Made by a program: the position numbers and the translations under genes. Below, in pieces: positions 35,851-64,000 of a DNA stretch of 64,000 bases. This DNA comes from Eubacterium sp. (GTDB lineage Bacteria > Bacillota > Clostridia > Lachnospirales > Lachnospiraceae), in assembly GCA_024698585.1 (NCBI GenBank), contig JAILRB010000056.1, forward strand, positions 1 to 64,000, in the 5' to 3' direction. The first letter of the stretch is position 1. Each line of letters opens with the position of its first letter. The notes under the pieces are model-generated. The model had not been told where the DNA came from. It did not search any database and worked only from the letters and a program-made list of their open reading frames with translations.

Positions 35851-35878
35851 AGTAGGGTGGGTGATTACTCACCCTATT
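35851..35878 (+). terminator. Attenuator-like stem-loop after the pilin gene
   Basis: TAGGGTG (35853-35859) and CACCCTA (35870-35876) pair, with A-T and G-T extensions, followed by an imperfect T/A run. It is weak as a terminator, which fits partial termination that keeps pilin mRNA above assembly-gene mRNA. Confidence 0.55.
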
Positions 35879-35924
35879 ATTCATCCAGGAAAACAGTGAA
35901 TTTAAAGAAAAAAAGGACATATGT

Positions 35925-36332: not shown

Positions 36333-36368
36333 GAAAACAATAAAAATTAGACAAAATGGAGTGTAGAT

Positions 36369-37049: not shown

Positions 37050-37079
37050 AAACTAAGTTAGAGAAAGTGGTGAATTAAT

Positions 37080-37832: not shown

Positions 37833-37855
37833 GGAAGTCATTAAGGAGGAAGAAT

Positions 37856-39370: not shown

Positions 39371-39419
39371 AATTAACAATTAACGATAGCTTGGGTGCAA
39401 GCAGAAAGTTGGAAAATAT

Positions 39420-40400: not shown

Positions 40401-40433
40401 TTAGAAAGAAATTAAGGATATGGAGGAATACAT

Positions 40434-41360: not shown

Positions 41361-41377
41361 AATAGTAGGAAATTTTT

Positions 41378-41722: not shown

Positions 41723-41747
41723 AGAAGGGTTAGATGGTGATTGAAAA

Positions 41748-42293
41748 ATGAGTGAAGAAAATGTATCGATTGAAGACTTACGAAGTGCGGTAGAAAATGA
41801 ACACAGATTTGCCACAGTGCTTCGTGGCTATGACAAAAAAGCTGTTAATACATACCTGAAAGAAATGGAAGAAAATTACCAGCAGTCTTTAGCTGAATAT
41901 GATGAGAAAAGAGTAGATATCATTAAAGAAAATGAACTTCTGAATGAAAAAGTGGAAATCTTAAATGCCAGAATTAAGGATTTGAATGCTCGTTTAGATG
42001 CAAAAAGAGATAATGACGAAAAGATTCGTCAGACAGTAATGGCAGAAATGAGTGTAAAAACAAATCAGATTAAAAGTGAAAAACGTGAAGTTGAGTTGAA
42101 ATTAACAGAGACAGAAAAAGAATTAGAAAACTTTAAGGCAGATGTTAAGGAAGCAACCGGTGAATTAAACGGAATGAGTGAGAAACTTGAAAAACTTCTT
42201 AGAGAAAAGTTTGACGAATGTGCAGAAATCATTAAAACTTGGGAAACACAGCATGGCGTTGTTGTGGAAAATATTGAAAATCAGGTTAAATAG
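41748..42293 (+). CDS. Coiled-coil protein, DivIVA-like N terminus
   Basis: A 181-residue soluble protein. Residues 10-45 (ENEHRFATVLRGYDKKAVNTYL) resemble the membrane-binding start of DivIVA/GpsB proteins, where FxxxxRGYD is conserved. The rest is almost all coiled coil (KENELLNEKVEILNARI and following). DivIVA-like proteins gather at cell poles or curved membrane. In a Tad operon with a CpaE lacking its receiver-like domain, it could be the polar marker for the pilus machine (inference). Confidence 0.75.
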   Translation: MSEENVSIEDLRSAVENEHRFATVLRGYDKKAVNTYLKEMEENYQQSLAEYDEKRVDIIKENELLNEKVEILNARIKDLNARLDAKRDNDEKIRQTVMAEMSVKTNQIKSEKREVELKLTETEKELENFKADVKEATGELNGMSEKLEKLLREKFDECAEIIKTWETQHGVVVENIENQVK

Positions 42294-42339
42294 TGATGTA
42301 AAAAATATTCTTTTTGAATAAGGGTTAGGAGAGATGCTT

Positions 42340-44015: not shown

Positions 44016-44076
44016 GGTGTAGTTTTCACAAAACATTGGACATACTGCCGAAAAGTTGACAAAACTATTTTTATGC

Positions 44077-44105
44077 TTGAGTACCGAAAAATACCATCAT
44101 ATAAT
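44077..44105 (+). promoter_or_regulatory. Promoter of the GH81 gene
   Basis: TTGAGT (44077-44082), 17 bases, TATAAT (44100-44105), 35 bases before the start codon at 44140. This location also argues against the upstream in-frame Met at 44056 as the start. Confidence 0.7.
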
Positions 44106-44139
44106 TAAACTATCAAAGTATGATTCGGAGGAGAAATAT

Positions 44140-50100: not shown

Positions 50101-51522
50101 ACTGTAGATGACGGATCATTATTCAAATACATCAACAGTGTAAGAAACCTTGCATTAGGTTGTGATGTAACTGTAGAAGACATTAACACATCTGAAGGAA
50201 GTCAGAATCCTAAGACAATTACAAATGGTGTTGTTGGTAAGTCCAATGACACAGTTGTTCAGACAACATGGGGAGCAAAAGAACAGACAGTAACCCTTGA
50301 CTTAGGAAGACAGATTTCAAAGAATCAGATTCAGGAAACGTTAATCGCTTTCAAGGCTGACAACACTAATGCAACAGCTTACAACATTCAGTTCTCAGCA
50401 GACGGTGAAAACTATGAAACAGTAATCGATGTTACAGGTGCAGCTTACAAAGAAGCATTAGAAGATGAATTCGACGCAAGTCAGTATAATCAGGATACAG
50501 TTCGTTACGTGAAGGTAAACTTTACAGCAGGAAATTATAACTGGGGTTACCAGATTGGTGAAATCGCAGTTATGGGAACTGATGTATACATGCCGGAAGA
50601 AGTAACAGGATTAACAGCAACTCAGACAGGTAAGAATTCCATTAACGTAACATGGGTTGGACCAAACAACGGACAGCTCTATAACGTATATGTAGACAAT
50701 GCAATTAAGGGAATGAACCTTGCAACATCTACATTAGATTGTAACGGAATCGATGCAGGTAGCCATACCGTTAAGGTTACGGCATTACTCAATGGTATTG
50801 AATCCAAGGGTGTTACTACTACAGTAATCGTTGCAGGAGATGAACCTATTACGGAAGTAACGACTGCAGAAGTTACAACAAAAGAAGAAACAACGAAGGA
50901 AGTTACAACTGCGGAAGTTACAACAAAAGAAGAAACTACAGCAGAAGTAACAACAGAAGAAGTTTATGCCGGAACAATTAGTGTAGAAGGATACCAGATT
51001 AGTACAAAGTATGAAGGATTCAGAATTGTTGGAGCAGTAGAACCAAAGATTGATGGCAAGAGAGTTCAGAAGTTTGGTACTGTTTATGCAATTAAGAATC
51101 TGAATGGTAAGACAAATACCGGAGTGACAGCAGACGATTTAGTTGTTGGATCCACAAATAGATTTGTAGCTTCCTATGAAGCAACGGAAGAAGGAATTCT
51201 TACAAGAAAGTCAGAAAACTCAGAAACAGCTACATGTTATGCAATGACAATGAAGTTTGGTAAGAAGAATAAGAATGCATTCATCACAACATACACTGTC
51301 AGAACATACGCATTGTTAGAAGACGGAAGCTATGTATATAGTGACGCTGTTGATTTCTCAGTATTCGACTTAGCGCAGTATGCATATGAACGTGGTTTGA
51401 TGAATAACTTAGAAGGACATAATTACTTATACAATAACATTCTTACAGTAGTTCAGCCGGATTACAAACAGAAAGATTTTGATTGGACAAGTCCAATTGC
51501 TGGAGCCGATGAGATTGGCTAA
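44140..51522 (+). CDS. Giant secreted modular GH81 endo-beta-1,3-glucanase
   Basis: A 2460-residue secreted enzyme that cuts internal beta-1,3 bonds. The start at 44140 has GGAGGAG and a signal peptide. Layout: signal peptide (1-35); F5/8-type-C domain (40-275) interrupted by an FN3-like insert (about 135-228); second F5/8-C (288-430); GH81 (about 445-1265, with CDHHFTYGYF near 901 and the acidic motif NQESASES near 978); chitobiase-C-like domain (1268-1358); third F5/8-C (1362-1490); chitobiase-C-like (1497-1577); two Big2 (1577-1735); F5/8-C-like (1737-1890); FN3 (1907-1992); F5/8-C-like (1994-2147); FN3 (2150-2235); Thr/Glu/Val linker; unrecognised C-terminal module (2279-2460) shared with the next three complete glucanase/CotH proteins. 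GH81 enzymes commonly act on insoluble beta-1,3-glucan. No LPxTG, SLH or dockerin. Confidence 0.92.
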   Translation: MRKKMKKVLSMLMVLTMVVSICPQTQLIDVAAADENTTPYNLSEERPVFVSSGANEDYAVDGNTNTRWQAEQSDQNEWLYVDLGKVATIDHLYMQWEAAYAKYYQIQFSDDETNWTTVYTKAKNTGAYVDMAVSYNYTGVREDGDLRFSVNWTSVEDAHYRVYVDDEIATAGGDGYKFSNHGGTQGDVRFTPGEHTIRVEAFNGDKELGSGTCTFTAEQGASGNNGIVVDASAALKQTINASELSKTTARYVKIIATERATAYGSSLFEFQVWGTGGANKPPVDYGTNIALNKPVQCSGTRDEWWMKDENGNITEAAYNGVKPENAVDGSTSTSFTSYQGDDQWLYVDLGRQYDIGRVITKFTDDGGKIYDVQVSADAVEWTTIHRYLRGYPSMIDNFTCYQRGVRYVRVLAYAKVESGSGVGIKELEVYEYKEGDSKENAPIPQLPTRQIVNNKNGKGSYISGEIKKELNKLPVFVNDETVQVPIDSNSWWSSSMIKTFGNVACVHPLKTVYSKKGLGVLLASAGWVNDRNKGDLGTGYSTENQMDFYVYPDNYVGKTGYDRVEGYGDYSVKLGLCDEDGLKMTSTVVKGSPYVFTDYYGTNTAFISSTSIDEFFNANGTKILTAEGQSVTADHIGFKSEDSENEKAGNDGSYFTISAPEGTTFTAKAVGKNTLIKVEFPSANDAYMSIGAMTEKNQMEQIYRHGYAYVTNTKVGYTFNKANSKIVTTYTATTQTKRSDFSSQTLQAFYPHQWKHATDTNNPDIIYPSIRGQMKGVFSNQISTTQQFAGLLPTFTKPNSSLFNSEECIEYLYTVLNELGTGPNADAYWQGKAVHPLAISALMADQLGETEMRDGLLKDLKKIMVDWFTYDGGDDSCYFIYNKDWGTLYYPESSFGANAAICDHHFTYGYFMFGASVLASYDQEFYNDYKDMIELLVRDYANPEEPEDDGNMFCKFRSFDQYSGHSWAGGYADNDDGNNQESASESLFSWVGMYLWGETTKNSKYIDAGAYGFTTEMEAIEQYWFDYDGDNWLEKYPFEGTGQIYGASYSYGTFFGGQPLYVYGIQWLPISEYLTNYGMNQTKCASMYQGLWDDTEYAMQAVLDTMDIKVAEAQAQGKSQAEIDAIIADYQKTYDEYATPDNGWQHITWPMLSQTNPQAAYDLFEENVSAMQKEDRANTLWFISAMDQLGYRTNDYIITGDYITGSVYKKEKNGTTTYTGEVWNPTDTTQTVTVKDANGNTKGTASVASGAFVSFNIDGNHAFELTQVSAPVIKATSLKTGEVSDNISGTVAFDDTQLIELSAESGATIHYTTDGSVPTTSSPVYEGKFLVSSDTSVKAIAVKEGFIDSSFASATITIEGDVIQSADDLSEGKLVTASSENGGETAEKANDGIATTRWQAQSDDTNEWLQVDLGSLRAINTVDVTWEAAYAAKYDIKVSKDGEEWTTVATPSGKTGLVHTTFDAVNTRYVRVQTVTRGTAYGSSIFEIAVYGAVQANAPVITPASGIYNGAQDVVMSTTVKGAEVKYTLDGTDPTENSLTYTEPLHIDKSAIIKAVTYRKGMVLSDVTESSIIISGTVSMNKTSERIAVGRTSQLLALTDETVTWRSSNNNIATVDQNGLVTAVNEGNATITARTASGKEVTCDVTVTEAVHISEVYLKKTTLEMRNRTSETLEIVINPADTTDDKTVTWSSNDENVVTVNQSGTVTAKGEGEATITAQVGNFTVTCDVTVGPAATVEEMVSSNKYNLALRKDITVYPEVAEGNKTYLNDGALTMNGNHCALSRAGWGYHDEGYAIIDLGDIYDASTIDEVLVQYKNIATNDTVLGRNFNIQYSANGVDYDVVYTSDTVVEADFDENAIIRTDVSGVTGGVRYIKIDYPSVADYGIQISEMAVLDTDLNAALAQVETIANPADLVVSSDTIKTITYTIVPDAGQEAFKYMVYIDGKLVADRVNAGTYRAENIEAGEHTVKVMSYYNKLNSEGISKKVTVDDGSLFKYINSVRNLALGCDVTVEDINTSEGSQNPKTITNGVVGKSNDTVVQTTWGAKEQTVTLDLGRQISKNQIQETLIAFKADNTNATAYNIQFSADGENYETVIDVTGAAYKEALEDEFDASQYNQDTVRYVKVNFTAGNYNWGYQIGEIAVMGTDVYMPEEVTGLTATQTGKNSINVTWVGPNNGQLYNVYVDNAIKGMNLATSTLDCNGIDAGSHTVKVTALLNGIESKGVTTTVIVAGDEPITEVTTAEVTTKEETTKEVTTAEVTTKEETTAEVTTEEVYAGTISVEGYQISTKYEGFRIVGAVEPKIDGKRVQKFGTVYAIKNLNGKTNTGVTADDLVVGSTNRFVASYEATEEGILTRKSENSETATCYAMTMKFGKKNKNAFITTYTVRTYALLEDGSYVYSDAVDFSVFDLAQYAYERGLMNNLEGHNYLYNNILTVVQPDYKQKDFDWTSPIAGADEIG

Positions 51523-51537
51523 AAAGAGATGATAGAA

Positions 51538-51566
51538 ACGGAGGTCGTTAGACCTCCGTTTTTTGC
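51538..51566 (+). terminator. Intrinsic terminator after the GH81 gene
   Basis: ACGGAGGTC and GACCTCCGT pair around GTTA, followed by six T. No convincing promoter was found in 51567-51753, though the ribosome site of the next gene is clear. Confidence 0.9.
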
Positions 51567-51753
51567 GTGGGAATGCAAAAACACTGCATTGGAACACGGG
51601 AAAATAAGGGGGATTTTTTTCAGAAAAGGTGTAAATATTTTAGAAAGGGGTGTTATATTTCAACCGGAATTGTTCGAAAAATTTCAATATGTTACGATGA
51701 ATCCTAGAGGTGTTAGAAAAACAGGAAAAAATGAGACGAGGAGAAGGATTATT

Positions 51754-54540
51754 ATGTTGAAAAAAGTAATTGCATGTGTAACTTCAGTTGCGCTTGCAGT
51801 GTCTTCTGTTGTGTTTTATCCGGCAGAGAAAAAGACCGTGCAGGCGTTAGTGGCAGATCCAGGAACATCCGGATGGAACTTAGTTTGGAGCGATGAGTTT
51901 AATGGAACTTCATTAGACACCAATGCCTGGACTTATGATATCGGAACAGGCTCTAGCGGATGGGGAAATAACGAAATCCAGTATTACACAAACAGAACGG
52001 ATAATGTTCGTGTATCAGATGGAACTTTGAAATTAATTGCAAAAAGAGAAAATTATGGCGGATCAAGTTTTACATCCGGCAGAATTAAGACACAGGATAG
52101 AAAAACTTTTAAATATGGAAAGATGGAAGCTAAGATTAAGGTCGAAGGTGGAAATCAGAATGGTGTTTGGCCGGCGTTCTGGATGATGGGAAATGATATC
52201 AGTGCTTATGGATGGCCAGCATGTGGTGAGTTAGATATTATGGAACACAGAAACGGTGAACCGGAAGTTTTAGGTACACTGCACTGGGGACCAAATTACA
52301 GCAGTCACCTGTGGTGGGGAAGTGAATCCGGTGGAAACTTTTATCGCTATCAGGACAATGCCAATAATGGAATCAATGGATGGCATACCTACGGGGTAAC
52401 CTGGGATGAAACATCCATTAAATGGTATGTGGATGATCAGGTATACCAGACAGCTTACCTGACAGATCAGAATGCTTCTTATTTTAGAAAGAATCATTTC
52501 TTCTTATTAAATCTGGCGTTAGGTGGAACAGGAACACCATTCACCAGAGGAATTACAGTAGATGGAAACTTCCAGCAGGCAACCATGTATGTGGATTATG
52601 TTCGTGCTTATTCATATAACGGAAGTGGCGGCTCAGAACTTCCATCCGGATTTACCAGTTGCGGTACCGGAAGCTGGAATGATATCGGAGCCTGGAAATA
52701 TTATGTAAACAGTGGAGAGGCTGCATATAAAGATGGTGGGTCTTTAAGCAATTTCTCAATGTACATTAAATCAAAGTCTTCTTGGGACTGGGGAATTCAG
52801 GCTAAGCCGGAAGTAACATTGGATGCAAACTCCAAATATACTTACAGCATTACAGCAAACTCCAGCAAGAGTACAGGAGCGTTGTTAGTAAACAGAGATG
52901 TGAACGGAAATGGTGTTGGAAGCATTATCAATCAGGGGATTGTTTCCGGAAATAATGTGTTTACCGGAACGATTGAAACCGGCGATTCTCCGGAAGAATT
53001 AGTATTTAACCTGGCAAATATTGATAGTGACACAACATTTAAGATTACAAACTTCTCAGTAACCAAAGTTGTGGAAACTACTGCAGCACCGAGTGATGGA
53101 TATACAGCAGTAGATAATAATCAGGTAGGTGCATGGACATTATATGCGGCAAACGGTTCATGGACTACCGGAAGAATGTCTTATAAAGGTAGCGGAAACA
53201 ACATGGACTTAAAGGTTCGTGTAGACGAATCCAGTGGACAGGCTGGAAGTTGGGGACTTCAGATGAAGTATCCGGTAACCGGATTAGATGCGAATAAAAC
53301 ATATGATGTAACCGTTCGTTATAATTCTTCAGTAGCAGGAACGGTCCTTGCAAAAATCGAAGAAGGTGGAACCGAGGCAGGAAATTCTGGTAACATTGCA
53401 ACGGTAGCAGGAAACAATACTTATACAACAACTGCTTCCGGATTCAATCAGTATCAGTTAATTCTGGAACTTTCCGGAATGCCGGCAGGCACAGTGATCG
53501 ATATGCAGGAAGTTACTTTCACACCACGTGCGGAAACAATCACACAGGCTCCGACAACTGCAGAGCCAACCAGTGCATCTACAAGTGGTGAATGGGTAAA
53601 GATTGAAGGAAACATCCAGCAGGGAACAAACTATTATTACAATAATGCGACAAGCGTATCTGTTGTAAACATTCAGGAACCGGGATTCACAACAGAAAGA
53701 GGTGTCTATGTAACTGTTCCGGCAGGAATCAGCAGCGTAGCATTAAATGGTGCAAACGTAACATCCATTCAGGGTGCGGGAGTAATTCTTCCATTATCTA
53801 TGATGAATGAAGGACAGAATACTGCAGTGATTAATTATGCAGGTGGTACAGCATCCATCGTAATCAAGAAGGAAGTGGAAGCAACCACAGCACAGCCAAC
53901 AACAAAAGAAATAACAACACAGGAGCCAACAACACAGGAACCTACTACGGTAGAACCAACTACTGAGGAACCGGAAACAGTGGATCCAAAAACTCAGGTG
54001 AACGTGTTAGGATATCAGATTAGTGCCACAAAAGAAGGGTACAGAGTGGTAGGTTCTGTTGAACCACAGATTAACGGGAAGCAGGTGACTTCCTACGGCG
54101 TGGTTTACGCAATCAATAATCTTTATGGAACAACACCGACAAACGTTACGGAGAACGATATGGTGGTAGGATCCAAAAATCCATATGTTGTATCTTATCA
54201 GGCAAGTAATGAAGCAATCTTAGGTCGTCATTACGGAGAATCAGAAACAGCAATCAACTTCGCTCAGGTAATGAAGTTCGGTAAGAAGAATGTAAAAGCT
54301 TTTGAAACAGTTTATGCAACGAGAGTGTATGCAGTATTAGAGGACGGAACATATGTATACAGTGATGTAAAGAGTTCTTCGGTTTTTGCAATCGCAAAGA
54401 AAGTTTATGATGGTAAAATTATGGGAAATCTTGCAGCGCATGAATATTTATATAATCAGATTCTTAAAGTGGTAGATCCGGCTTACGAAGAAGTGGATTA
54501 TCATTGGAATAGTGGAATGGCAAAACCGGGTGAGCTCTAA
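51754..54540 (+). CDS. Secreted modular GH16 endo-beta-1,3-glucanase with shared C-terminal module
   Basis: A 928-residue enzyme. The start at 51754 is chosen for its GAGGAGA site and signal peptide; the open frame extends 75 codons upstream across the terminator without either. Layout: signal peptide (1-31); GH16 domain (38-290; Glu159, Asp161 and Glu164 in GELDIME); two CBM4/9-like sandwiches (about 300-440 and 450-593); a ~100-residue unrecognised module (about 610-708, VVNIQEPGF, VYVTVPAG, QGAGVIL) also present at the N terminus of two CotH proteins; Thr/Pro/Glu linker (TTQEPTTQEPTT); C-terminal module (749-928) as in GH81. It differs from the region A GH16 enzymes in all accessory domains, so it is not a simple duplicate. 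Confidence 0.92.
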   Translation: MLKKVIACVTSVALAVSSVVFYPAEKKTVQALVADPGTSGWNLVWSDEFNGTSLDTNAWTYDIGTGSSGWGNNEIQYYTNRTDNVRVSDGTLKLIAKRENYGGSSFTSGRIKTQDRKTFKYGKMEAKIKVEGGNQNGVWPAFWMMGNDISAYGWPACGELDIMEHRNGEPEVLGTLHWGPNYSSHLWWGSESGGNFYRYQDNANNGINGWHTYGVTWDETSIKWYVDDQVYQTAYLTDQNASYFRKNHFFLLNLALGGTGTPFTRGITVDGNFQQATMYVDYVRAYSYNGSGGSELPSGFTSCGTGSWNDIGAWKYYVNSGEAAYKDGGSLSNFSMYIKSKSSWDWGIQAKPEVTLDANSKYTYSITANSSKSTGALLVNRDVNGNGVGSIINQGIVSGNNVFTGTIETGDSPEELVFNLANIDSDTTFKITNFSVTKVVETTAAPSDGYTAVDNNQVGAWTLYAANGSWTTGRMSYKGSGNNMDLKVRVDESSGQAGSWGLQMKYPVTGLDANKTYDVTVRYNSSVAGTVLAKIEEGGTEAGNSGNIATVAGNNTYTTTASGFNQYQLILELSGMPAGTVIDMQEVTFTPRAETITQAPTTAEPTSASTSGEWVKIEGNIQQGTNYYYNNATSVSVVNIQEPGFTTERGVYVTVPAGISSVALNGANVTSIQGAGVILPLSMMNEGQNTAVINYAGGTASIVIKKEVEATTAQPTTKEITTQEPTTQEPTTVEPTTEEPETVDPKTQVNVLGYQISATKEGYRVVGSVEPQINGKQVTSYGVVYAINNLYGTTPTNVTENDMVVGSKNPYVVSYQASNEAILGRHYGESETAINFAQVMKFGKKNVKAFETVYATRVYAVLEDGTYVYSDVKSSSVFAIAKKVYDGKIMGNLAAHEYLYNQILKVVDPAYEEVDYHWNSGMAKPGEL

Positions 54541-54585
54541 AAAGAACATTATAAAAAGTGGATTAATTGAAAGCGGGAAAGATTT

Positions 54586-57500
54586 ATGGGGAAAAAGTTA
54601 TTATCAATCATGATGGTTTTGGCACTGATGTTCACAACAATGAACTATGTGCCAAAGCAGGTTAAGGCTGCACAGAGTGATGTGCAGAATTATGACTGGA
54701 GCAGTGTGGATTACATCGGATGTGATGGATCGGCATTGGCTTATGTCAATAAAGTGAAAGTGGCAGTAGTAGACAATAGCCAGTTTGACAATTATGTAAA
54801 CATTCAGACAGGCGCTGCAACACAGCCGGGAATTTATATGACATTTCAGGGAGCTGATTTTGGGGATATCCTTTTAAATGGAGAACCATTCACTTCTTAT
54901 GATGTACAGGGTGCCGGAATGTGGATTCATGTGGCAGCATTGGGTGAATACAATGATTTAGTTGTGAAAAACGCAAGTGGTGCAACGAAAGCAGAACTCT
55001 ACATCTATAAGAGCGAAGTGGAAGAGGAGTCCGGCGAACAGCCTTCTGAAACTCAGAGTGAACAGAACCAGTCAGAGGCCAGAGGGGAATTATTACCTGG
55101 TCTTGATCAGTGGAATACATATCCGGCAGGAGCAGTGATTTCTGAAAGTGGCGTCACAGCTACAGTGCCAGCCGTGACTGGTGGAGATAACTGGACTACA
55201 CAGTTAGTAAAAAATGGAATTCAGTTGGTAAACGGAAAATATTATAAAGCAAGCGTGACATTGACTTCTTCTGTAGCAAGAAAGTTCCAGTTATTGATAC
55301 AGAATGATGCAGGAAATGGCGCAGCAAACTGGAATGTAAATAATAGCGAAACAACTTTCAGCGTAGAAGCAAATGAAGCTTATACATTTACAACAGTATT
55401 TCAGGCGAGCAGTGCATCTAATCCGGTTCTTTTCGGAATTATGATGGGATTTGTTGCTGAAGCTAGTGATGAAGCAAATGTTACTGTATCTGCCGCAAGT
55501 TTGGTAGAATATGATGCTGATCCATCTCAGGGTGGAGAACAGCCATCTGAGACACAGACTCCGGAGCCGGAAACATTTGGGGCTCCAAAAGATTTGGCAG
55601 CATATAACTTCTATGGAAACGGAAAAGGATATCAGGTATGCTTTACAGAATCCGTAGATGCCGTTTCTTACAATGTATATATGGATGATTCCGATGTATT
55701 GGCTACAGTAACAAAGACAGACCAGTACATTAATGCATCTGTATTCTCTGCATATGCAGACAATGCACTTCATACTTTAGCAGTGGAAGCAGTAGATGCA
55801 GAAGGAAATGTATCAGCAAAATCAACAACAAAAGTTCGTGTTACTACACTTACAAATTCTAATAATGATCCAAGTGACATTTCCAGAGTTTATGTAGTAA
55901 CAAATTCAGATAAGAAGATTGAAAAGTCTAGTAAGACGAAGGCTTCCCTAACCGTGGTTAGTGGTGATGGAGCAATCAAGAGTGTTCATTACGGCGGAAC
56001 CATTAAGCTGCGTGGAAATTCCACGTCCTTAGCAGATAAGCCGGCATATAATATTTCCTTCAATAAGAAACAGGAAGTGATTTCCGGTGTGACAAAAGGA
56101 AAGAAATGGTGTCTCCTGGCCAATGCATATGAAAAGACCATGATGAGAAATAAACTTGCAATGGACTTTGGAAAGAAACTTGGCAATGTGGCAGCGCCGG
56201 CAGAACATTATTCAGATTTATATATTGATGGTGTTTACATGGGAACTTTCGTCATCAGTGAACCGGCTGAAAATGGTCGTTCAGAAGTTTCTTATAATGA
56301 AGATGGCGATGACGTGTTAATCGAATTAGAGCAGAATGGGAAAGATGAATCTGCTGATGGTGCAGCATACTATACGACTTCCAGATTAGGAAGACGTTTC
56401 GCCTGCGAAGATCTGGCAGATCAGGTAGAAGAACTTTATAAGTCAGGCGTAACCTCTCAGGACGCAATTGCAAATAATCTGAGACAGAACTATACGAAGT
56501 TTAGCAGTATGATTACTACCTTAAATGACTTTGAAACAGATCTGGTAAATAGTTCTTCCGATGCAATGCTTAGCCATATTGATGTGGATTCCTTTGTAAG
56601 CATGTATATTGTTAATGAATTATTCCAGACGGTTGACTTCGGTTACAGCTCTGTAAAATTCTATATCACCTATGATGAAAATCATGTACCGACAATTCAT
56701 GCAGGTCCGCTTTGGGATTTCGACCTTTCTTCAGGAAACTCCGCAGATGGAAGCTGCAGAACTTACAATACATTCCGTGGACAGAATGTGAACCCATGGT
56801 TCTCATACTTGATGAAGAACAATACATTTAAGAATAAGGTTATTGCAAAGTATACTGCAATGCAGCCAACCATTCAGAACATCTATCGTGACAATGCTTT
56901 GGGACTTTCACAGATTCATCAGAATGAAGAATTAATGGAAGCATCCAGAATCAGAAACTACAGCATTGCCGGATGGTCAGAATCTGTTGCAGACAGTGCA
57001 GAATACAATATTTATAACTATAGCTACAGCACTGTAGCACCATATAGTACATATACTTATGATCAGCACATTGAATATTTGACCAATTGGTTGAAGAATA
57101 GAAATGAATGGATCTGCGGACAGTGGGGCATTGACTACACTGCTTATGAAAGCGAATATAATCCGAATGGAACCATTTCTGAGGATTTGGATATTACAGG
57201 ATACCAGATGACTTCTACTTACAATGGAGAAGAAGGAAGAATGGGACTTAGAGTAATCTTCCAGACTGAAGAAACAGTAAACGGAGAAGTTCCTGTAGAA
57301 AGTGGTTTGGTTTATGGATTAGACTATGATGGATCCATTACAGAAAATGATGTGGTAGTCGGTTCAGATAGTCGTTTTGTTGCATCCTTTGATGCACCAA
57401 GACAAAACAAAATGTCAAAGCAGATGGGAGATTCTGCGACAGCATCTTACTACTCCATGGTAATGAATACCGGACAGGATAATGTATCAGCAGCAGCATT

Positions 57501-57729
57501 TACAACAACATATTTTGTTCGTGCATATGCGAAGATGAGTGATGGCTCTTATGTATATAGTAAAGTTTATTCATATACTGTATTCAGAGTTGCAAAATAC
57601 TTATATAACAATATTTTATCAAGCAATGCATATACTCATGACTTCTTGTACGAGAAGGTGTTGGCTTATGTTGATCCATCATTTAGACCAGTTGAATACG
57701 ACTGGAGTAAGATCATTACACATTTATAA
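54586..57729 (+). CDS. Secreted CotH-kinase-domain protein 1 with shared modules
   Basis: A 1047-residue secreted protein. Layout: signal peptide (1-29); unrecognised module (34-140, DWSSVDYIG, IYMTFQG, DVQGAGM); linker; CBM4/9-like sandwich (168-311); FN3-like (327-420); CotH domain (about 425-850) with IKLRGNST, KKWCLLANAYEKT and the active-site motif GPLWDFDLSSGN (Asp711, Asp713); C-terminal module (868-1047). CotH of Bacillus spores phosphorylates coat proteins, and CotH domains also occur in cellulosomal proteins of Clostridia; a role in modifying surface partners is inference. It starts 45 bases after the GH16 gene with a weak ribosome site (GCGGGA), so it is likely cotranscribed. Confidence 0.88.
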   Translation: MGKKLLSIMMVLALMFTTMNYVPKQVKAAQSDVQNYDWSSVDYIGCDGSALAYVNKVKVAVVDNSQFDNYVNIQTGAATQPGIYMTFQGADFGDILLNGEPFTSYDVQGAGMWIHVAALGEYNDLVVKNASGATKAELYIYKSEVEEESGEQPSETQSEQNQSEARGELLPGLDQWNTYPAGAVISESGVTATVPAVTGGDNWTTQLVKNGIQLVNGKYYKASVTLTSSVARKFQLLIQNDAGNGAANWNVNNSETTFSVEANEAYTFTTVFQASSASNPVLFGIMMGFVAEASDEANVTVSAASLVEYDADPSQGGEQPSETQTPEPETFGAPKDLAAYNFYGNGKGYQVCFTESVDAVSYNVYMDDSDVLATVTKTDQYINASVFSAYADNALHTLAVEAVDAEGNVSAKSTTKVRVTTLTNSNNDPSDISRVYVVTNSDKKIEKSSKTKASLTVVSGDGAIKSVHYGGTIKLRGNSTSLADKPAYNISFNKKQEVISGVTKGKKWCLLANAYEKTMMRNKLAMDFGKKLGNVAAPAEHYSDLYIDGVYMGTFVISEPAENGRSEVSYNEDGDDVLIELEQNGKDESADGAAYYTTSRLGRRFACEDLADQVEELYKSGVTSQDAIANNLRQNYTKFSSMITTLNDFETDLVNSSSDAMLSHIDVDSFVSMYIVNELFQTVDFGYSSVKFYITYDENHVPTIHAGPLWDFDLSSGNSADGSCRTYNTFRGQNVNPWFSYLMKNNTFKNKVIAKYTAMQPTIQNIYRDNALGLSQIHQNEELMEASRIRNYSIAGWSESVADSAEYNIYNYSYSTVAPYSTYTYDQHIEYLTNWLKNRNEWICGQWGIDYTAYESEYNPNGTISEDLDITGYQMTSTYNGEEGRMGLRVIFQTEETVNGEVPVESGLVYGLDYDGSITENDVVVGSDSRFVASFDAPRQNKMSKQMGDSATASYYSMVMNTGQDNVSAAAFTTTYFVRAYAKMSDGSYVYSKVYSYTVFRVAKYLYNNILSSNAYTHDFLYEKVLAYVDPSFRPVEYDWSKIITHL

Positions 57730-57741
57730 AAGTTGATTCGA

Positions 57742-57770
57742 AACGCGGTTCGTTGGGACCGCGTTTTTTT
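57742..57770 (+). terminator. Intrinsic terminator after CotH protein 1
   Basis: AACGCGGTTC and GGACCGCGTT pair around GTTG with one T-G pair, followed by a run of T. Confidence 0.9.
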
Positions 57771-57805
57771 ACGTGAATTATAAATGGAATCCTTTCCCAT
57801 TCTCG

Positions 57806-57834
57806 TTGCCACCGATATGAAAATGTGATACAAT
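57806..57834 (+). promoter_or_regulatory. Promoter of CotH protein 2
   Basis: TTGCCA (57806-57811), 17 bases, TACAAT (57829-57834), about 49 bases before the start codon. Confidence 0.75.
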
Positions 57835-57882
57835 CTATAGGCATTGAAAGGGTCGGAAAAAAGTGAATATGGAGGAGATGAA

Positions 57883-60555
57883 ATGAGAAAAGCATTCAAA
57901 AAAGTGCTGTCAGGAATGATGGCTGTTGTTTTGATGTCTGCGAGTGTTACAATGTCCGACGTGAAAACAATGAAGGCAGAAGATGGGATGACAGCAGTTC
58001 AGGAAGAAATCACCTGTGAACAGAATATTGTGGGCGGAAAAAATGCAGCAATGATTACTTCCGAAAGTGTAACAATTAGTGACGTGGAGTATTATAACTA
58101 TGTCAAGTATAAAGGGATTAGCGCAAAAGCATCAACGGAATTAGGTGATGCCGATAATGCTATCGATGGAAAAATGGATTCCCGTTGGGAAAGTATTCAG
58201 GGATTAGATGGACAGACATTGACCATTAATCTTGGAAATACCTATAAGGTAAAAAGAGTGTCGGCTTGTTGGGAAGCTGCATCTGCGAAAAAATATACAT
58301 TGCAGGTGTCAACAGACGGAAAGAATTTCCAGGATATTACTGTGGTAGAGAGTAACATAGGGGAACGTACTGAGGAGTTAACCTTGTCTTCAGAAGTAGA
58401 TGCTCGATATATCCGTTTTAATTGCGAGTCAAGAAATACAGCATACGGTTTTTCCATTTTCGAAGTGGGAGTATTCGGAAGTGAAACACAAAAAGAATCA
58501 TTGACAGAACTGGATAATCTGGAAGTAAAGAACTACTATGAATATTCTGGGAAGTATATGCTTTATTTCGATGAAGAAACCGGAGCAACAGGATATAACG
58601 TATACTTAGATGATCAGGAAACACCGGTTAAGACCGTTACCTCTTCCGGTGACTATTTAGATGCCAGTGACGTAGAAGGATTAAGCGAAGGAACACATAC
58701 CGTTCGTGTTGTGTCATTGGATGCAGATAACAATGAAAAAACGGAAGTGACTAAGGCCTTTACGAAAATGGGAGACAGAGGTACTTACACTGACATTGCA
58801 CAGGTATACATTTACACAGAAAAAGAAATTAACAGAGAGTATCATGCGAATAAGGATGTAACTGTTACCGTTGTGGATAAGAAGGGTAGCAAGACAAAGG
58901 ATTTGATTGCTACAAACAGTAATATTAAGATTCGTGGTAACACGACTGCAGGTGCTCCAAAGAAGCCATATAACATTAAGCTTGATAAGAAGCAGGCAGT
59001 CCTTGGAATGGGTAAGGCGAAGAAGTGGTGCCTGTTAGCAAACTCTTTTGATAAGTCCTTAATGAGAAATTATCTTTCTTATAACTTTGGACGAGAAAAT
59101 GGTTGTATCTATACCAATAACAACCGTTACGTAGAAGTTTATGTGAACGGAAACTTCCAGGGAAATTATCTGTTAACAGAAGCAGTGGAAGCAAAGAAAG
59201 AACGTGTTAATGTAGATGCTTATGTGGCAGACAGCAATGATGTATTATTGGAATTAGGACATCGTTCAGAAGAAACAGATGTAGATCACTTTACAACAAA
59301 CGTTCTCGGAACTACTTTTGATATTAATGATCCGGAACGAGGAGATGATTTAACTGATGAACAGGTTGATACAAAGATTGCCAATGTAAAGGCTTATTTG
59401 GAAGACTTTGAGCAGACCTTGAAGAGTCAGAATTATGACAATATTTTAGAGTACATTGATGAAGATTCTTTTGTGAACTTCTATATCGTAAATGAATTAT
59501 TTAAGAATGTAGACTTTAACTTCAGTTCTACCAGATTCTTCATTAAAGGAGATAAGATTTATGCAGGACCAATGTGGGATTTGGATTTATCCAGTGGTAA
59601 CTGTAAGAGCACAATGTATACAGGATATTATGGTGCAGATGGGTTAAGCTATACCGGATATTATTGCCAAGATATGAACTGGTACCGTGAACTTCTGAAG
59701 AATCAGATTTTCATGGGTAAGGTGAAAGCACGTTACGAAGAATTACAGTATAAGATTCAGAGTATTTTCCGTGAGGATTCTGTAGAAGAAATCAGCATTG
59801 AAAAGGCAGTAGAAACTTATGGTGCATCTTATGAAAGAAACTATAAGTCAAAGGCTAAATTAGGTGCTGGTTGGGAACTGGACAATGAAGATGGTTTCAG
59901 TTTTGCGGCAGAAGCTGGTTGGGAAACATGGCAGGAACCAATTGAATTCTTAAGAACATGGCTTCAGAATAGAAATGAATGGCTCTGCCAAGAATGGGGC
60001 ATTGACCCAGAAGTGGCTTATGAGGAAACAGAACCAAACACAGTTCATGTGGAAATCAATGGAAGCCAGATCAGTACCCTTTATGAAGGATACCGTATCG
60101 TTTATTCCGTAAATAAACCGGAATTGGTAACCAGCGTAGGTATGGTTTACGGATTAAGTGACTATGTAACCAATGAAGATATGGTAGTGGGCAGCACAGC
60201 AGAAACCGTTTACTCTTTCGAAAGTTCAGCAGACGGAGTATTATCTACCAACTTCAGCAAGAGAAAAAATGCACAGAGCTATGCAATGACCATGAAGAGC
60301 ATCAAGAGTGCGGAGTTCTATAATACAAAAATCAGCGCGAGAGCTTATGCAGTATTAGAAGACGGAAGCATCGTTTACAGTGATGTGAAGAAGATGACAG
60401 TATATAACACAGCAGATTACCTGTACCAGAATCTGAAGATGAACAATCTTTCAGGACATGAGTACCTGTACAATGAGATTCTTTACAGAGTAAATCCTGC
60501 ATACCAAAAGAAGGACTTCATTTGGAACAATGCAACAGCTCCAATGGAGGACTAA
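57883..60555 (+). CDS. Secreted CotH-kinase-domain protein 2 with shared C-terminal module
   Basis: An 890-residue secreted protein. The start at 57883 has GGAGG seven bases upstream and begins a signal peptide (1-29). Layout: F5/8-type-C domain (about 70-205, NAIDGKMDSRWES); FN3-like (210-295); CotH domain (about 300-710) with IKIRGNTT, KKWCLLANSFDKS and GPMWDLDLSSGN (Asp566, Asp568); C-terminal module (720-890). It lacks the module found at the N terminus of CotH proteins 1 and 3; the F5/8-C domain, close to the third one in GH81 by eye, takes that place. It has its own promoter and terminator, so it can be regulated apart from protein 1. Confidence 0.88.
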   Translation: MRKAFKKVLSGMMAVVLMSASVTMSDVKTMKAEDGMTAVQEEITCEQNIVGGKNAAMITSESVTISDVEYYNYVKYKGISAKASTELGDADNAIDGKMDSRWESIQGLDGQTLTINLGNTYKVKRVSACWEAASAKKYTLQVSTDGKNFQDITVVESNIGERTEELTLSSEVDARYIRFNCESRNTAYGFSIFEVGVFGSETQKESLTELDNLEVKNYYEYSGKYMLYFDEETGATGYNVYLDDQETPVKTVTSSGDYLDASDVEGLSEGTHTVRVVSLDADNNEKTEVTKAFTKMGDRGTYTDIAQVYIYTEKEINREYHANKDVTVTVVDKKGSKTKDLIATNSNIKIRGNTTAGAPKKPYNIKLDKKQAVLGMGKAKKWCLLANSFDKSLMRNYLSYNFGRENGCIYTNNNRYVEVYVNGNFQGNYLLTEAVEAKKERVNVDAYVADSNDVLLELGHRSEETDVDHFTTNVLGTTFDINDPERGDDLTDEQVDTKIANVKAYLEDFEQTLKSQNYDNILEYIDEDSFVNFYIVNELFKNVDFNFSSTRFFIKGDKIYAGPMWDLDLSSGNCKSTMYTGYYGADGLSYTGYYCQDMNWYRELLKNQIFMGKVKARYEELQYKIQSIFREDSVEEISIEKAVETYGASYERNYKSKAKLGAGWELDNEDGFSFAAEAGWETWQEPIEFLRTWLQNRNEWLCQEWGIDPEVAYEETEPNTVHVEINGSQISTLYEGYRIVYSVNKPELVTSVGMVYGLSDYVTNEDMVVGSTAETVYSFESSADGVLSTNFSKRKNAQSYAMTMKSIKSAEFYNTKISARAYAVLEDGSIVYSDVKKMTVYNTADYLYQNLKMNNLSGHEYLYNEILYRVNPAYQKKDFIWNNATAPMED

Positions 60556-60574
60556 GAATTAAAGACAGTGAAGG

Positions 60575-60602
60575 AAGAGAGTTTGAAAGAACTCTCTTTT
60601 TT
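60575..60602 (+). terminator. Intrinsic terminator after CotH protein 2
   Basis: AAGAGAGTT and AACTCTCTT pair around a short loop, followed by six T. Confidence 0.88.
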
Positions 60603-60631
60603 CGCGGAAAAAGGGAAGTATGAAGGCAGTG

Positions 60632-60659
60632 TTGACAAAAATGAATACGGTGTTATAAT
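60632..60659 (+). promoter_or_regulatory. Consensus promoter before the Rpn-family gene
   Basis: TTGACA (60632-60637) and TATAAT (60654-60659), both perfect consensus, with a 16-base spacer. It is the strongest promoter in the window by consensus match. Transcription should start near 60666. Confidence 0.85.
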
Positions 60660-60665
60660 CGGAAT

Positions 60666-60712
60666 ATACCGAAGATAAAGTTTGAATGGTAAACTTTGTC
60701 TTCGGTTTTTTT
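60666..60712 (+). ncRNA. Short terminated leader RNA / attenuator
   Basis: Directly at the predicted start of transcription, ACCGAAGATAAAGTTT (60668-60683) pairs with AAACTTTGTCTTCGGT (60691-60706) over 16 bp (one G-T pair), loop GAATGGT, followed by seven T. Most transcripts should end here as a ~47-base hairpin RNA; read-through is needed to express the nuclease gene. Confidence 0.7.
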
Positions 60713-60767
60713 GTGGGGCATTTTCGTTAGGTGCTGGTCCTTGGACTTGGAGAGGGAAAGGAGTAGA

Positions 60768-61685
60768 ATGTCGGAAAAGGACATAACAGAAAAGGTGCTT
60801 ATGAGTCATAACGACGTCTTTGCGGATGTCATTAATGGACTCGTGTTTAAGGGAGAACAAAAGGTTAAATCATTCGATTTGGGGAATGAGGTTGTACATG
60901 CACAATATAAGGCATCGGATGAAGTGATACATGAAGAAGAAAGAGATGTTGCAAAATACTGGGAAACACAAAGTGTAAAAATAGCTATGTTTGGCGTGGA
61001 AAATCAAACGAACGTTGATTCGTATATGCCACTTAGGGTTATTGGATATGATGGAGCGGTCTATAAAGAACAGTTGTCAATGGCAAATGAAAAGTTCTAT
61101 CCGGTGGTTACAATAGTGCTTTATTTTGGAACGGACAGAAGATGGAATGGTAAGAAGAATCTTAAATCTTATTTTGACATACCCGATGGACTGGAAAAGT
61201 ATGTTAATGATTATAAGATTCATGTGTTTGAAATTGCATGGCTCACAGAAGAAGAACTGGCTTATTTTCACAGTGATTTTAAAGTGGTAGCAAACTTTTT
61301 TGTGAACAAACGGAAAAATAAAGATTACATCCCGGATGATGAGACTGAAATAGAACATGTGGACGAAGTGTTAAAACTCCTGACCGTGATGACAGGAGAC
61401 AGAAGATACGAAAGAATATTAAGTAAGGGAGATGGGAAAGAGGTGCGTAGAATGTGTGATGTGGCAGAAAGACTTGAACAGATGGGGATTGAAAAAGGAC
61501 TCAAGGAGGGGATTAGCCAAGGAATCAGCCAAGGAATCAGCCAGGGAATCAAAGAGGCTAGGACTGTGGATATTGCCATTTTAAAATCATTGAAAAAGGG
61601 AATGACGATTGAAGAAATATCGAAGGGTCAAGATGTTGAATTGGAAGAGGTTCGGAAAATTGCAGAGGCGTTAATGGAAGAGTAG
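60768..61685 (+). CDS. Rpn-family PD-(D/E)XK nuclease / putative transposase
   Basis: A 305-residue protein of the Rpn (YhgA-like) recombination-promoting nuclease family. The start at 60768 has AAAGGAG upstream; an in-frame Met at 60696 lies inside the terminator hairpin. Family features are MSHNDVFADVINGLVF (DVFAD, N-terminal part), GVENQTNVDSYMPLRVIGYD (core) and VLYFGTDRRW. Three exact GISQ repeats (residues 248-259) lie in a variable stretch before the C-terminal helices (MTIEEISKGQDVE). Such proteins act as DNA endonucleases with mobile-element behaviour, or have been linked to phage defence in some cases; the role here is unknown. The gene interrupts the CotH cluster and has no functional link to glucan use that I can see. 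Confidence 0.85.
   Translation: MSEKDITEKVLMSHNDVFADVINGLVFKGEQKVKSFDLGNEVVHAQYKASDEVIHEEERDVAKYWETQSVKIAMFGVENQTNVDSYMPLRVIGYDGAVYKEQLSMANEKFYPVVTIVLYFGTDRRWNGKKNLKSYFDIPDGLEKYVNDYKIHVFEIAWLTEEELAYFHSDFKVVANFFVNKRKNKDYIPDDETEIEHVDEVLKLLTVMTGDRRYERILSKGDGKEVRRMCDVAERLEQMGIEKGLKEGISQGISQGISQGIKEARTVDIAILKSLKKGMTIEEISKGQDVELEEVRKIAEALMEE
61509..61544 (+). repeat. Three 12-base tandem repeats in the Rpn-family gene
   Basis: Three units of GGAATCAGCCAA-like sequence encode GISQ three times. In-frame expansion or contraction is possible, as reported for related Rpn genes in which repeat changes alter the protein's C-terminal part. Confidence 0.8.
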
Positions 61686-61709
61686 CCGGAAGGAAAATAA
61701 TGATGAGGG

Positions 61710-61744
61710 AAGGTTAGTGGACGTTTTGTTTGCTGACCTTTTTT
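61710..61744 (+). terminator. Intrinsic terminator after the Rpn-family gene
   Basis: AAGGTTAG and CTGACCTT pair (one T-G) around a 15-base loop, followed by six T. Confidence 0.75.
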
Positions 61745-61881
61745 GATAAAAAAATGATGGAAATGTGAACGATAACAAGTGGTGGAATGTAAATGTGTAT
61801 AAAACATACAGATGTATAAACATGTAAAGAAATTATATTGCTGAACCGTTTCAATTTCGTTGAAAAAACGTGGGTTAGATG

Positions 61882-61911
61882 TTAAACTAATTATGATAGA
61901 CTTAGTATACT
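61882..61911 (+). promoter_or_regulatory. Probable promoter of CotH protein 3
   Basis: TTAAAC (61882-61887), 18 bases, TATACT (61906-61911). The -35 match is moderate. Transcription from here would give a leader of about 215 bases before the start codon at 62133. Confidence 0.5.
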
Positions 61912-61984
61912 TTGGTGGAGTGCACCCTTTTTTAAAAAGAGGAGAAAATGAAAGAAATAATTTGAAGAGAAAAGGGGGCATTGG

Positions 61985-62108
61985 TAGACTTTTGGTTCAA
62001 TTAGCAGCAGGTCGGAAAAAAAGTCTGGCAGGGTGCTAATTGAATCGGGAGTCTAAATTCGAAGGGAATGTAATAGACTTCAGAAATGCCGAAGTTTGTG
62101 GTCTAAAT
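61985..62108 (+). ncRNA. Structured leader RNA candidate upstream of CotH protein 3
   Basis: Bases 61985-62006 pair with 62034-62055 over 22 consecutive positions (18 Watson-Crick, four G-U that are valid only in + strand RNA), with a 27-base loop containing an A7 run. A second, weaker stem-loop (62074-62105) is flanked by the same words TAGACTT and GTCTAAAT, so arms can exchange partners. It does not match any riboswitch class I know. No T-run follows; it ends 24 bases before the start codon. Confidence 0.6.
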
Positions 62109-62132
62109 AATAAAAGGAAAGGAAGAAAAACT

Positions 62133-64000
62133 ATGAAAGGAACAATGAAGAAATTTATTTCTGTAGTTCTTACATTGGCTATGATTGTAACCGGATTACA
62201 GTATAGTCCGAGGACTACGGTAAGTGCGGCTCAACCCGATTGGTCTAGTATCGAGTGGGCCGGTGATGGCGCAGGCGGTGGAGCTTATTCAAATAAATAT
62301 AAGTTTTACGGAACCAATGCATCGTTGGTAAATATTCAACACCCGGGTTTTGCATCAGAAGCGGGACTATATGTTACATTTCCGGCAGGAATATCTGCAT
62401 GTAGTTTGTCGGGCTATGACGTTCAGGGAGCAGGTATTATAATTTATTTGTCTAATTTTACTCAGCAGGTTACCGAGTTTACGGTAACACAGGGGGGGAA
62501 TGTAGAGACCTGTTATGTATATTACGCAGATGGAGTGGCGGAAACTACAACAGAGGCTACTACACCGGAGGTAACTACAGCAACTCCGGAGACAACTACA
62601 GTAGCTCCGGAAACAACAACCGAAGAAACGACAGAAGCTCCGTTAAATTGGCAGACAGATGCGAATTTGACAGCTTACTTTGGTAGTGGAGCAAGATATG
62701 CATATGTAACATCAAATCCTGGAAATGGTGATGACAAGTTCCTGGGTGGTAATTTCACGTTTAATGCAAGTAATATGAACTGCACAACAGGGGCATATGG
62801 TAATTCCCAGACATATACCTTTAATGGCAAAGTAATTAACACATCTAGTGAGTCATATGCATTAGGAGAAAATATTGCTTACGCAGATTTTAATCCGGGA
62901 ATGAATACTGCCGTATTCATTGGACATTATACAGCAGGTGAAAGCGATATTGATGTCACCTGTACGATGTATATTGATGTTCCGAATAAACCAATGGGAC
63001 TTTCAATAAATGACTATTCAGAATATACAGGAAAATATATCGCAAAATTTAAAGAAGCTAATGATGTCGAAAACTACAAAGTTTATGTAGATGGTGTTGC
63101 TACTAGTATTGAACTTGGCGGTAGTGGAGATTACTTTACCGTTGCTGAATTAAATGATGCAGGATATTCAGCAGATACATATGCGATTACTATTACAGGT
63201 GTAGATGCTGAGGACGTTGAAACTCCGGTTTCAAATTCTGTATCTGTTAGTGTTCCGGCAACTGCAGGAACAAATGGAGATATTGCACAGATTTACATTC
63301 AGACAGATAACACAAATCTTTCTCCGACACCACAGGATGGAAAAGAAACAATGTTAAAGACTCCTCACGACAAACAGGAAGCAGCAATTACTGTTGTTGA
63401 TAAGGATGGAGGAAATAGTGCATATACAGTTTTTGAAGATCTTCCAAAAACTACTGTTAAGGTACGTGGAAATTCTACAGCCGGAGCAGTTAAGAAGGCG
63501 TATAATATTACGTTTGGTTCAGGAAAAGATTTATTTGGTTTAGATGGTTCAGCAAAGTCGGCTAAGAAGTGGAGTCTTCTTGCAAACGCATTTGATAAAT
63601 CATTAATCCGTAACTATTTAGGATTTGATATTGCACATCATATGTGGGCTAATGGAACTACACCGGACTACAATAGCCAGTGTAAATTTGTCGACTTGTA
63701 TTTCAATGGAGTATATTTAGGTAACTATTTGCTTATTGAATCTGTTGAAACAGGTGCAGGACGAGTAAATATTGATTCTGAAAATTCTGAAACATACAAT
63801 AGTGAAGCGTTATTGGAATTAGAAGAAATCCATGCAATCGGTGAAGAAGCTCATTTTACAACAACCAGATATAATCAGACATTTATCTTTGGCTCGCCGG
63901 AAGTTGTAAAGGATATTGGAAATAATGCAGAATTCTTTGCTCAAAAGCAAACAGATGTAGCAGGATTCTTTAACGATTTTGAAACAGATTTATATAATGA
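62133..64000 (+). CDS. Secreted CotH-kinase-domain protein 3, 3' end off the window
   Basis: At least 622 residues; the frame is open to the right edge. The start has GGAAAGGAAG upstream and begins a signal peptide (about 1-31). Layout: unrecognised module (33-130; DWSSIEWAG, VNIQHPGF, LYVTFPAG, DVQGAGI) as in the GH16 enzyme at 51754 and CotH protein 1; Thr/Pro/Glu linker (131-168); a beta-sandwich (about 170-285); FN3-like (286-380); CotH domain from about 385 with VKVRGNST and KKWSLLANAFDKS. The GPxWDxD motif and any C-terminal module lie beyond the edge. Its leader is long and structured (61985-62108). It is the third CotH gene within 9.5 kb. Confidence 0.88.
   Translation, partial: MKGTMKKFISVVLTLAMIVTGLQYSPRTTVSAAQPDWSSIEWAGDGAGGGAYSNKYKFYGTNASLVNIQHPGFASEAGLYVTFPAGISACSLSGYDVQGAGIIIYLSNFTQQVTEFTVTQGGNVETCYVYYADGVAETTTEATTPEVTTATPETTTVAPETTTEETTEAPLNWQTDANLTAYFGSGARYAYVTSNPGNGDDKFLGGNFTFNASNMNCTTGAYGNSQTYTFNGKVINTSSESYALGENIAYADFNPGMNTAVFIGHYTAGESDIDVTCTMYIDVPNKPMGLSINDYSEYTGKYIAKFKEANDVENYKVYVDGVATSIELGGSGDYFTVAELNDAGYSADTYAITITGVDAEDVETPVSNSVSVSVPATAGTNGDIAQIYIQTDNTNLSPTPQDGKETMLKTPHDKQEAAITVVDKDGGNSAYTVFEDLPKTTVKVRGNSTAGAVKKAYNITFGSGKDLFGLDGSAKSAKKWSLLANAFDKSLIRNYLGFDIAHHMWANGTTPDYNSQCKFVDLYFNGVYLGNYLLIESVETGAGRVNIDSENSETYNSEALLELEEIHAIGEEAHFTTTRYNQTFIFGSPEVVKDIGNNAEFFAQKQTDVAGFFNDFETDLYN

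Follow-up and report, generated by a model that had tools for sequence, protein, structure and literature searches.

CotH proteins and glucanases of a Eubacterium genome share a C-terminal module with a genome-wide set of secreted proteins

Why should three genes for proteins with a CotH kinase domain lie beside glucanase genes? The question is raised by a 64,000-base stretch of DNA from a Eubacterium sp. of the Lachnospiraceae (assembly GCA_024698585.1), hereafter the window, which comprises bases 1-64000 of contig C13 (JAILRB010000056.1; 109,267 bases). The genome is an incomplete draft of 2.5 Mb in 65 contigs, 92.9% complete, and the tallies of proteins given below cover the open reading frames (ORFs) of the stretches fetched from it. 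The isolate names of its closest relatives suggest a rumen lineage; the nearest by module is isolate RUG11188 (99% in the module). An original prediction, made from the letters of the window, proposed that the CotH proteins phosphorylate a module common to them and the glucanases, or its linkers, and in this way build or harden an extracellular assembly. We find that the locus belongs to a larger set of secreted proteins, encoded across the genome, that share one module. Taken as a whole, the reading that we favour with somewhat more confidence than doubt is that this module tags secreted enzymes for attachment or display, that the tagged set is aimed in good part at fungal-type walls, and that the CotH proteins are enzymes bearing the same tag.

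A module shared by proteins across the genome

The genes of the locus are all on the plus strand, in the order GH81, GH16, CotH1, CotH2 (GH, glycoside hydrolase family), followed by a terminator-like hairpin, a Transposase_31 gene and CotH3. Matches to PF08757, GH16 and GH81 confirm that three CotH genes stand beside glucanase genes, and the N-termini of CotH1-3 are signal-peptide-like when judged by eye. According to Pfam and a module search, the GH81 endo-beta-1,3-glucanase (44056..51522) holds F5/8 type C (F5/8C), Big_2 and CHB_HEX domains and ends in the shared module (50980..51510; E 4e-57). The GH16 beta-glucanase (51529..54540, likely start ATG 51754; PF00722 E 1.1e-19) ends in a further copy (53998..54537), which served as the query of the genome search. 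Pfam, a local hidden Markov model (HMM) and the module search divide the CotH1 protein (54586..57729) into a second shared domain, a CBM4_9-like region, the CotH domain and the module (57193..57711; E 6.4e-31), while the CotH2 protein (57844..60555) has an F5/8C domain (58126..58455), the CotH domain and the module (60052..60540; E 2.1e-31). The CotH3 protein, cut at the window end (62040..64000), has F5/8C and CARDB domains and, by the module profile, a divergent module near its C-terminus. Identity to the GH16 copy is 54% for GH81, 37% for CotH1 and 43% for CotH2, and the predicted sharing of a C-terminal module between glucanases and CotH proteins is thus borne out. At these E-values, none of the matches to CotH, GH families or the module can be put down to chance.

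The module, of about 165 residues, is not a local trait of the CotH cluster. With the GH16 copy as query, 41 places in the genome match at E <= 0.01, and a local profile found 40 copies of at least 100 bits in 39 ORFs. In 35 of these 39 the module ends no more than 25 residues from the C-terminus; the exceptions are CotH3, the proteins of C24:40002-42422 and C52:2173-4134, with the module at the N-terminus, and that of C26:13371-19718, with two tandem copies inside. The last three proteins are possible adaptors. The ORF that follows CotH3 (591 codons from the first ATG) bears another divergent copy. The linkers fit the original prediction in part: a Thr-rich stretch of Thr/Glu/Pro composition immediately precedes the module in 18 of the 39 proteins, but in none of the three CotH proteins, and that of CotH3 sits in the N-terminal part.

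No Pfam family matches the module in the 39 proteins, and no NCBIfam family matches it in the six proteins scanned. AlphaFold2, run on 86 aligned rows, returned a model of the GH16 copy with a mean predicted local distance difference test score (pLDDT) of 93.1 and a predicted template modelling score (pTM) of 0.85; the predicted fold is an FN3-like beta-sandwich followed by helices. Its top two fold matches in the PDB are FN3 domains (E 1.9e-3, TMq 0.39, and E 2.7e-3), and TMq is at most 0.40 among the 50 best. Nothing in a viral structure library matches the fold at E <= 1e-3. The module sequence gave 30 matches to solved structures, best E 0.3, mostly DNA polymerase I, which we took as chance.

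Across genomes the module is narrowly spread. It was matched in 21 of 23 genomes of the same genus (the present one included) and in none of 37 genomes of other genera; CotH was found in 21 of the 23 and in 17 of the 37. Two genomes of the genus, G017 and G019, have neither. Wider searches scored at most nine candidates per genome, which makes their copy numbers lower bounds: among 397 genomes of the family, strong copies occur in the present genome and in G342, of another genus, with five more genomes giving weak matches (E 1.3e-6 to 7.3e-4), and among 391 genomes of the class, strong copies occur in the present genome alone, with 11 weak cases, mostly over the sandwich part. In the second genus with strong copies, the module is carried by one or more of three CotH genes.

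Because of its position, copy number and company, we consider the module to be quite probably a lineage-specific tag by which secreted enzymes are kept on the surface of the cell or close to what they digest. Proteins exported with such different catalytic domains would need one thing in common, and the C-terminal module could provide it. An extracellular set with a common tag stands as the likeliest reading. The original prediction is also supported in that secreted CotH proteins with a kinase-like fold and intact motifs have a module in common with the glucanases.

The claim that no system of this make-up has been described was too strong. Passages of two papers on Ruminococcus albus (PMC4300822, PMC4081043) describe CBM37 (CBM, carbohydrate-binding module) as unique to that species as of 2014 and as attaching enzymes to the cell, with 77, 51 and 102 copies in three strains; one CBM37 protein, Rumal_1044, is a CotH protein, raised about 4-fold on cellulose. 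By this account CBM37, proposed as the main surface attachment in place of a scaffoldin, resembles the present module in being a lineage-restricted, high-copy module on GHs, non-catalytic proteins and CotH. The trait is seen here as well, in a restricted module on 39 proteins, strong in two genera among those sampled. Unlike CBM37, the module belongs to another organism and another cargo, aimed to a good extent at fungal-type wall here and at plant wall there; the likeness is one of distribution and partners.

Display by cellulosomes offers a second parallel. The cellulosomal protein CseP of Clostridium thermocellum carries a dockerin. CotH domains are reported in cellulosomal proteins, e.g. 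C. thermocellum CseP/Cthe_0044 and Cthe_0239, in the portions available of PMC6083626, PMC3413522 and PMC12484212; PMC3413522, as far as seen, attributes dockerins to CotH proteins of A. cellulolyticus and C. thermocellum as a group. The resemblance is that a CotH domain sits within the species' enzyme-display system. Unlike in a cellulosome, cohesin (PF00963) was found in none of five module-rich genomes, and dockerin, S-layer homology (SLH) and sortase-anchor families are absent from the matches of the 39 module proteins (E <= 1e-5 for most), to which the dockerin check was limited; the module is of another family. The joining of CotH to display modules is thus already known, and what would be new is the present module as the tag. 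CotH here would be the local version of a repeated pattern, and a rule suggests itself, that CotH is repeatedly fused to the species' own display module (dockerin, CBM37 or this one), which bears on the role of secreted CotH. If the reading is true, gut Lachnospiraceae have a further route, beside dockerin-cohesin pairs and CBM37, for gathering secreted hydrolases.

Cargo of the module

The domains accompanying the module in the 39 proteins, assigned with Pfam, include GH18 in six (one also with GH5), two each of GH81, GH16, Glyco_hydro_cc (which we take to be GH128-like) and alpha-1,3-glucanase, and one GH76, 15 in all. These 15 partners belong to families that act on chitin, beta-1,3-glucan, alpha-1,3-glucan and alpha-mannan. 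The other cargo consists of GH43 (two), GH115 (one), alpha-amylase (one), peptidases S8 (two) and M64 (one), CotH (three), a pectate-lyase-like protein, a CBM5/12 protein, seven proteins with other domains and five with no match at threshold. GH9, GH10, GH11 and GH48 have no match among the 39. Eight ORFs of the genome hold GH18, six of them with the module.

A similar company recurs in two other records, SIG293 and RUG12910, which by their ORF lengths probably correspond to G342 (another genus) and G016 (the same genus). From them 18 module proteins, 13 of the former and 5 of the latter, were scanned, a choice out of 103 module matches in fetched loci that include the window's own and overlapping ones. 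Seven of the 18 come from the same GH list; their domains are GH81, GH18, GH16, S8, M64 and GH43 (two each) and one each of GH128-like, CotH, GDSL lipase, DUF4832 and F5/8C, with one lacking a match. Across the genus (23 genomes), the number of module copies correlates with the number of GH18 matches (rho 0.66), of CotH matches (0.65) and with genome size (0.43), kinship being uncorrected.

From this cargo we lean towards a tagged set aimed in good part at fungal-type walls; its targets, with a similar modest preference, would be chitin, beta-1,3-glucan, alpha-1,3-glucan and alpha-mannan, perhaps with wall protein. If true, rumen bacteria are equipped against fungal walls, in a habitat where anaerobic fungi matter for fibre digestion. 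A bolder version strikes us as improbable: a cohesin-free surface apparatus of about 40 tagged proteins, controlled or matured by secreted CotH kinases with tagged proteins as their targets, in a bacterium that preys on rumen fungi or is specialised in feeding on them. Predation on fungi by rumen protozoa is described in the accessible part of PMC7200989; the open-licence literature yielded nothing on the conserved C-terminal domain or on a GH81/GH18 fungal-wall set in rumen Lachnospiraceae, and none of the other papers listed there seemed to concern the present system.

Several observations weigh against this picture. The 24 partners that fall outside the fungal-wall list (GH43, GH115, amylase, peptidases, CotH and unknowns) outnumber those within it, one GH18 module protein also holds a GH5 cellulase-family domain, and glucans of plants or other sources may also be substrates of GH16 and GH81. 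Within the genus, G019 combines four GH18 matches with the lack of a module. As to the tag itself, three proteins have the module N-terminal or internal; among solved structures the fold finds no clear relative (best E 1.9e-3); and from the weak, partial matches elsewhere in the Clostridia, the sandwich part is perhaps not wholly confined to these genera. Finally, if CotH were a mere passenger of the tag, it would not need to lie as close to module copies as it does (see below).

The CotH proteins and their relation to the module

The genome has five CotH genes, all above the curated cut-off of PF08757, among them the three at the locus. Within the window, CotH1, CotH2 and CotH3 match PF08757 at E 1.5e-33, 1.4e-43 and 4.4e-16, the last over its in-window part. 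The original prediction saw the GPxWDxD motif intact in two of the proteins; by alignment it is intact in each of the three, namely GPLWDFD in CotH domain 1 (56002..57114), GPMWDLD in domain 2 (58924..59985) and GPIWDMD in domain 3 (63456..64000, continuing to contig position 64409), the third motif lying past base 64000. CotH3 is one frame of 3183 codons that runs to contig position 71588 (L006:1040-10588); 142 residues remain after its module copy, apparently an insertion near the end of the protein. CotH frames of 2932-3443 codons also occur in G002, G005, G007 and G013. The glucan-binding-like modules ascribed to the CotH proteins are borne out only in part, by the F5/8C domains of CotH2 and CotH3, by a CBM4_9 match of CotH1 that at 25.7 bits falls slightly short of the cut-off of 25.9, and by the second shared domain of CotH1 and CotH3.

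Over 13 aligned CotH domains (27-69% identical to CotH2, whose domain numbering we use), K13, D197 and the residues of GPxWD219xD221 are invariant and E86 is nearly so. The predicted CotH2 domain (mean pLDDT 80.9, 13-row alignment) finds the B. cereus CotH kinase in Foldseek (5jd9, E 2.5e-8; 5jda, E 3.8e-8; TM about 0.6), the remaining listed matches being at E 0.017 or weaker. By sequence, the CotH2 domain on its own matched no solved structure; the 13-row profile reaches 5jd9 at E 5.2e-8, covering the N-lobe only, and a C-lobe profile matched no solved structure. Changes at D228 and D251 inactivate B. subtilis CotH, according to the part of PMC7821199 at hand. By their spacing, D197 and D219/D221 are candidate counterparts of these residues; the C-lobe could not be aligned to 5jd9. 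From the predicted kinase fold and the conserved Asp motifs, we give CotH1-3 an even chance of being active enzymes; carrying the same tag, they might modify proteins that are located at the surface or sent there.

The closeness of CotH to the module was examined in 17 genomes of the genus with 1 to 13 copies, leaving out the module-rich G000, G006, G007 and G009 and the module-free G017 and G019. There, 25 of 69 module copies have a CotH gene no more than 10 kb away, against 2.2 expected from an even spread, and 21 of 44 CotH genes have a module copy within that distance; the genomes behind these counts are related, not independent. Such a pair occurs in 10 of the 17 genomes and in none of the other seven, and G016, with 13 copies, has not one within 10 kb of CotH. 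Co-occurrence outside the locus, the lack of which the original prediction had named as telling against it, is thus present in these 10 genomes and in the second genus. A GH16-module gene followed by CotH1-module is preserved in L109 (whose title, MGBC, presumably refers to a mouse-gut catalogue) and L080, and GH81-module in L079, L081 and L084. Much of the closeness goes back to the inheritance of a single locus and does not reflect repeated, independent events. The core of glucanase, CotH and module appears to be old within the genus, copy number having risen later in a few species, a direction that we infer.

Two of the five CotH genes in the genome lack the module and have Lys-rich C-terminal tails instead, with net charges of +25 and +30 over the last 100 residues. 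One of them (L007:5296-7227, on contig C60) is followed by a LytR-CpsA-Psr-like gene (by eye) and a GH81 gene with the module (L007:9068-13000), a second CotH-GH81 neighbourhood in the genome. In L109:11505-14105, an ortholog of CotH2 (56% over 725 aa), a Lys-rich tail with a net charge of +41 over the last 100 residues replaces the module. This pair, together with the paralogs, is why we regard the module as an exchangeable tag. A tree of 21 CotH domains, marked for presence of the module, is weak evidence: the L072 and L073 CotH3 rows and the last L080 CotH row run up to the end of a contig or locus and the middle L080 row breaks off inside the CotH domain, which makes their 'none' labels unreliable, and L109:11505-14105 is the only clean case of an ortholog with a different tail.

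How, then, do the alternatives fare? That the CotH kinases phosphorylate the module or its Thr-rich linkers, as originally predicted, agrees with the kinase fold and intact motifs, with the pairing in 10 of 17 genomes, with the joint preservation of the GH16 and CotH1 genes in L109 and L080, and with Ser/Thr columns of the module conserved at 97% (position 118) and 95% (position 122). A special kinase-substrate relation is nevertheless hard to reconcile with a module whose 39 carriers are mostly not CotH proteins, dozens of them far from any CotH gene, or with CotH genes in 17 of 37 other-genus genomes that lack the module; the seven genomes with no module near CotH, G016 in particular, and the Lys-rich tail of the CotH2 ortholog point the same way. 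We know of no evident source of ATP outside the cell. The described substrates of CotH, in the section of PMC7821199 that we cite, are Ser/Lys/Arg-rich repeats, versus the Thr/Glu/Pro linkers here. The Lys-rich tails are closer to such repeats and are candidate substrates by this analogy. Phosphorylation of the module or linkers is thus conceivable, but we rate it as quite unlikely and do not favour it. The same want of ATP in a secreted place would suit a CotH without catalytic function that serves the assembly for structure or binding, a pseudokinase use of the fold; a structural role, besides a regulatory one, is proposed for cellulosomal CotH in the part of a review consulted (PMC12484212). 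Since K13, D197, D219 and D221 never vary among the 13 aligned domains, and E86 hardly does, we hold this to be possible yet doubtful.

There are two further alternatives. The module might be a CBM that aims enzymes at their substrate with no role in holding them to the cell, which its predicted beta-sandwich, the FN3 fold matches and its presence on GHs alongside CBM5/12, CBM6 and F5/8C would fit. Its nearly fixed C-terminal place, its occurrence on CotH proteins and peptidases as well as on enzymes with unlike sugar substrates, and the confinement of strong copies to few sampled genera speak for a tag instead, and we consider a CBM rather unlikely. Were the CotH proteins spore or exosporium proteins, as in Bacillus, their neighbours would be bystanders; sporulation is probable, since SpoIVA, the only sporulation gene checked, is kept. 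The CotH proteins do resemble that of the Bacillus cotB-cotG-cotH cluster (PMC7821199; structures 5jd9/5jda) in family and, for the modelled CotH2 domain, in predicted fold. They differ in being multi-domain proteins with signal-peptide-like starts and F5/8C or carbohydrate-binding-like domains, in sharing a tag with secreted hydrolases and in having glucanase neighbours, and a partner with Ser/Lys/Arg repeats of the CotB/CotG type was not seen by eye among ORFs of at least 150 codons at about 44-81 kb of the contig. A role in spores is accordingly very improbable.

CotH genes are tied to extracellular polysaccharide elsewhere as well: in streptococci and clostridia they stand beside genes for the exopolysaccharide Pel (PMC7112168, in the passages seen), a likeness in that CotH would act outside spore coats, although hydrolases are found here and not synthesis genes, with no Pel-type match among the window ORFs scanned with Pfam, a subset of the whole. 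A CotH gene is also mentioned in a stalk cluster of Zetaproteobacteria in the excerpt available of PMC8250860. The tagged, probably surface-held set remains the reading that we prefer.

Other features of the window

The second shared domain, of about 75 aa and without a Pfam name, was traced with a local HMM in GH16 (53632..53853), CotH1 (54769..54987) and CotH3 (62295..62510), as well as in the GH5-GH18 protein (C29) and, partially, in the GH81 protein of C60. Past CotH2 a terminator-like hairpin of 17 pairs with a T tail (60668..60706, plus strand, pattern match only) is a possible end of a GH81-GH16-CotH1-CotH2 unit; a 12/12 match to a sigma-70 promoter (60632-60659) stands directly before it. 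Neither kind of site is in excess in the region, terminator-like sites numbering 5 versus 5.6 in shuffles and promoter-like sites 22 versus 32.0. The Transposase_31 (YhgA-like) gene between CotH2 and CotH3 (60696..61685, plus strand; PF04754 E 5.2e-8) is probably unrelated to its CotH neighbours.

Farther upstream, window 5013-27457 holds genes for a solute-binding protein, three permeases, two GH16 proteins without a module match, a LacI regulator, a GH94 phosphorylase and DUF5696, a probable glucan uptake region. Directly upstream of GH81 lies a Tad/Flp pilus locus (34917-43782) with a prepilin peptidase, RcpC, AAA_31, T2SSE, two T2SSF and TadE/G-like genes.

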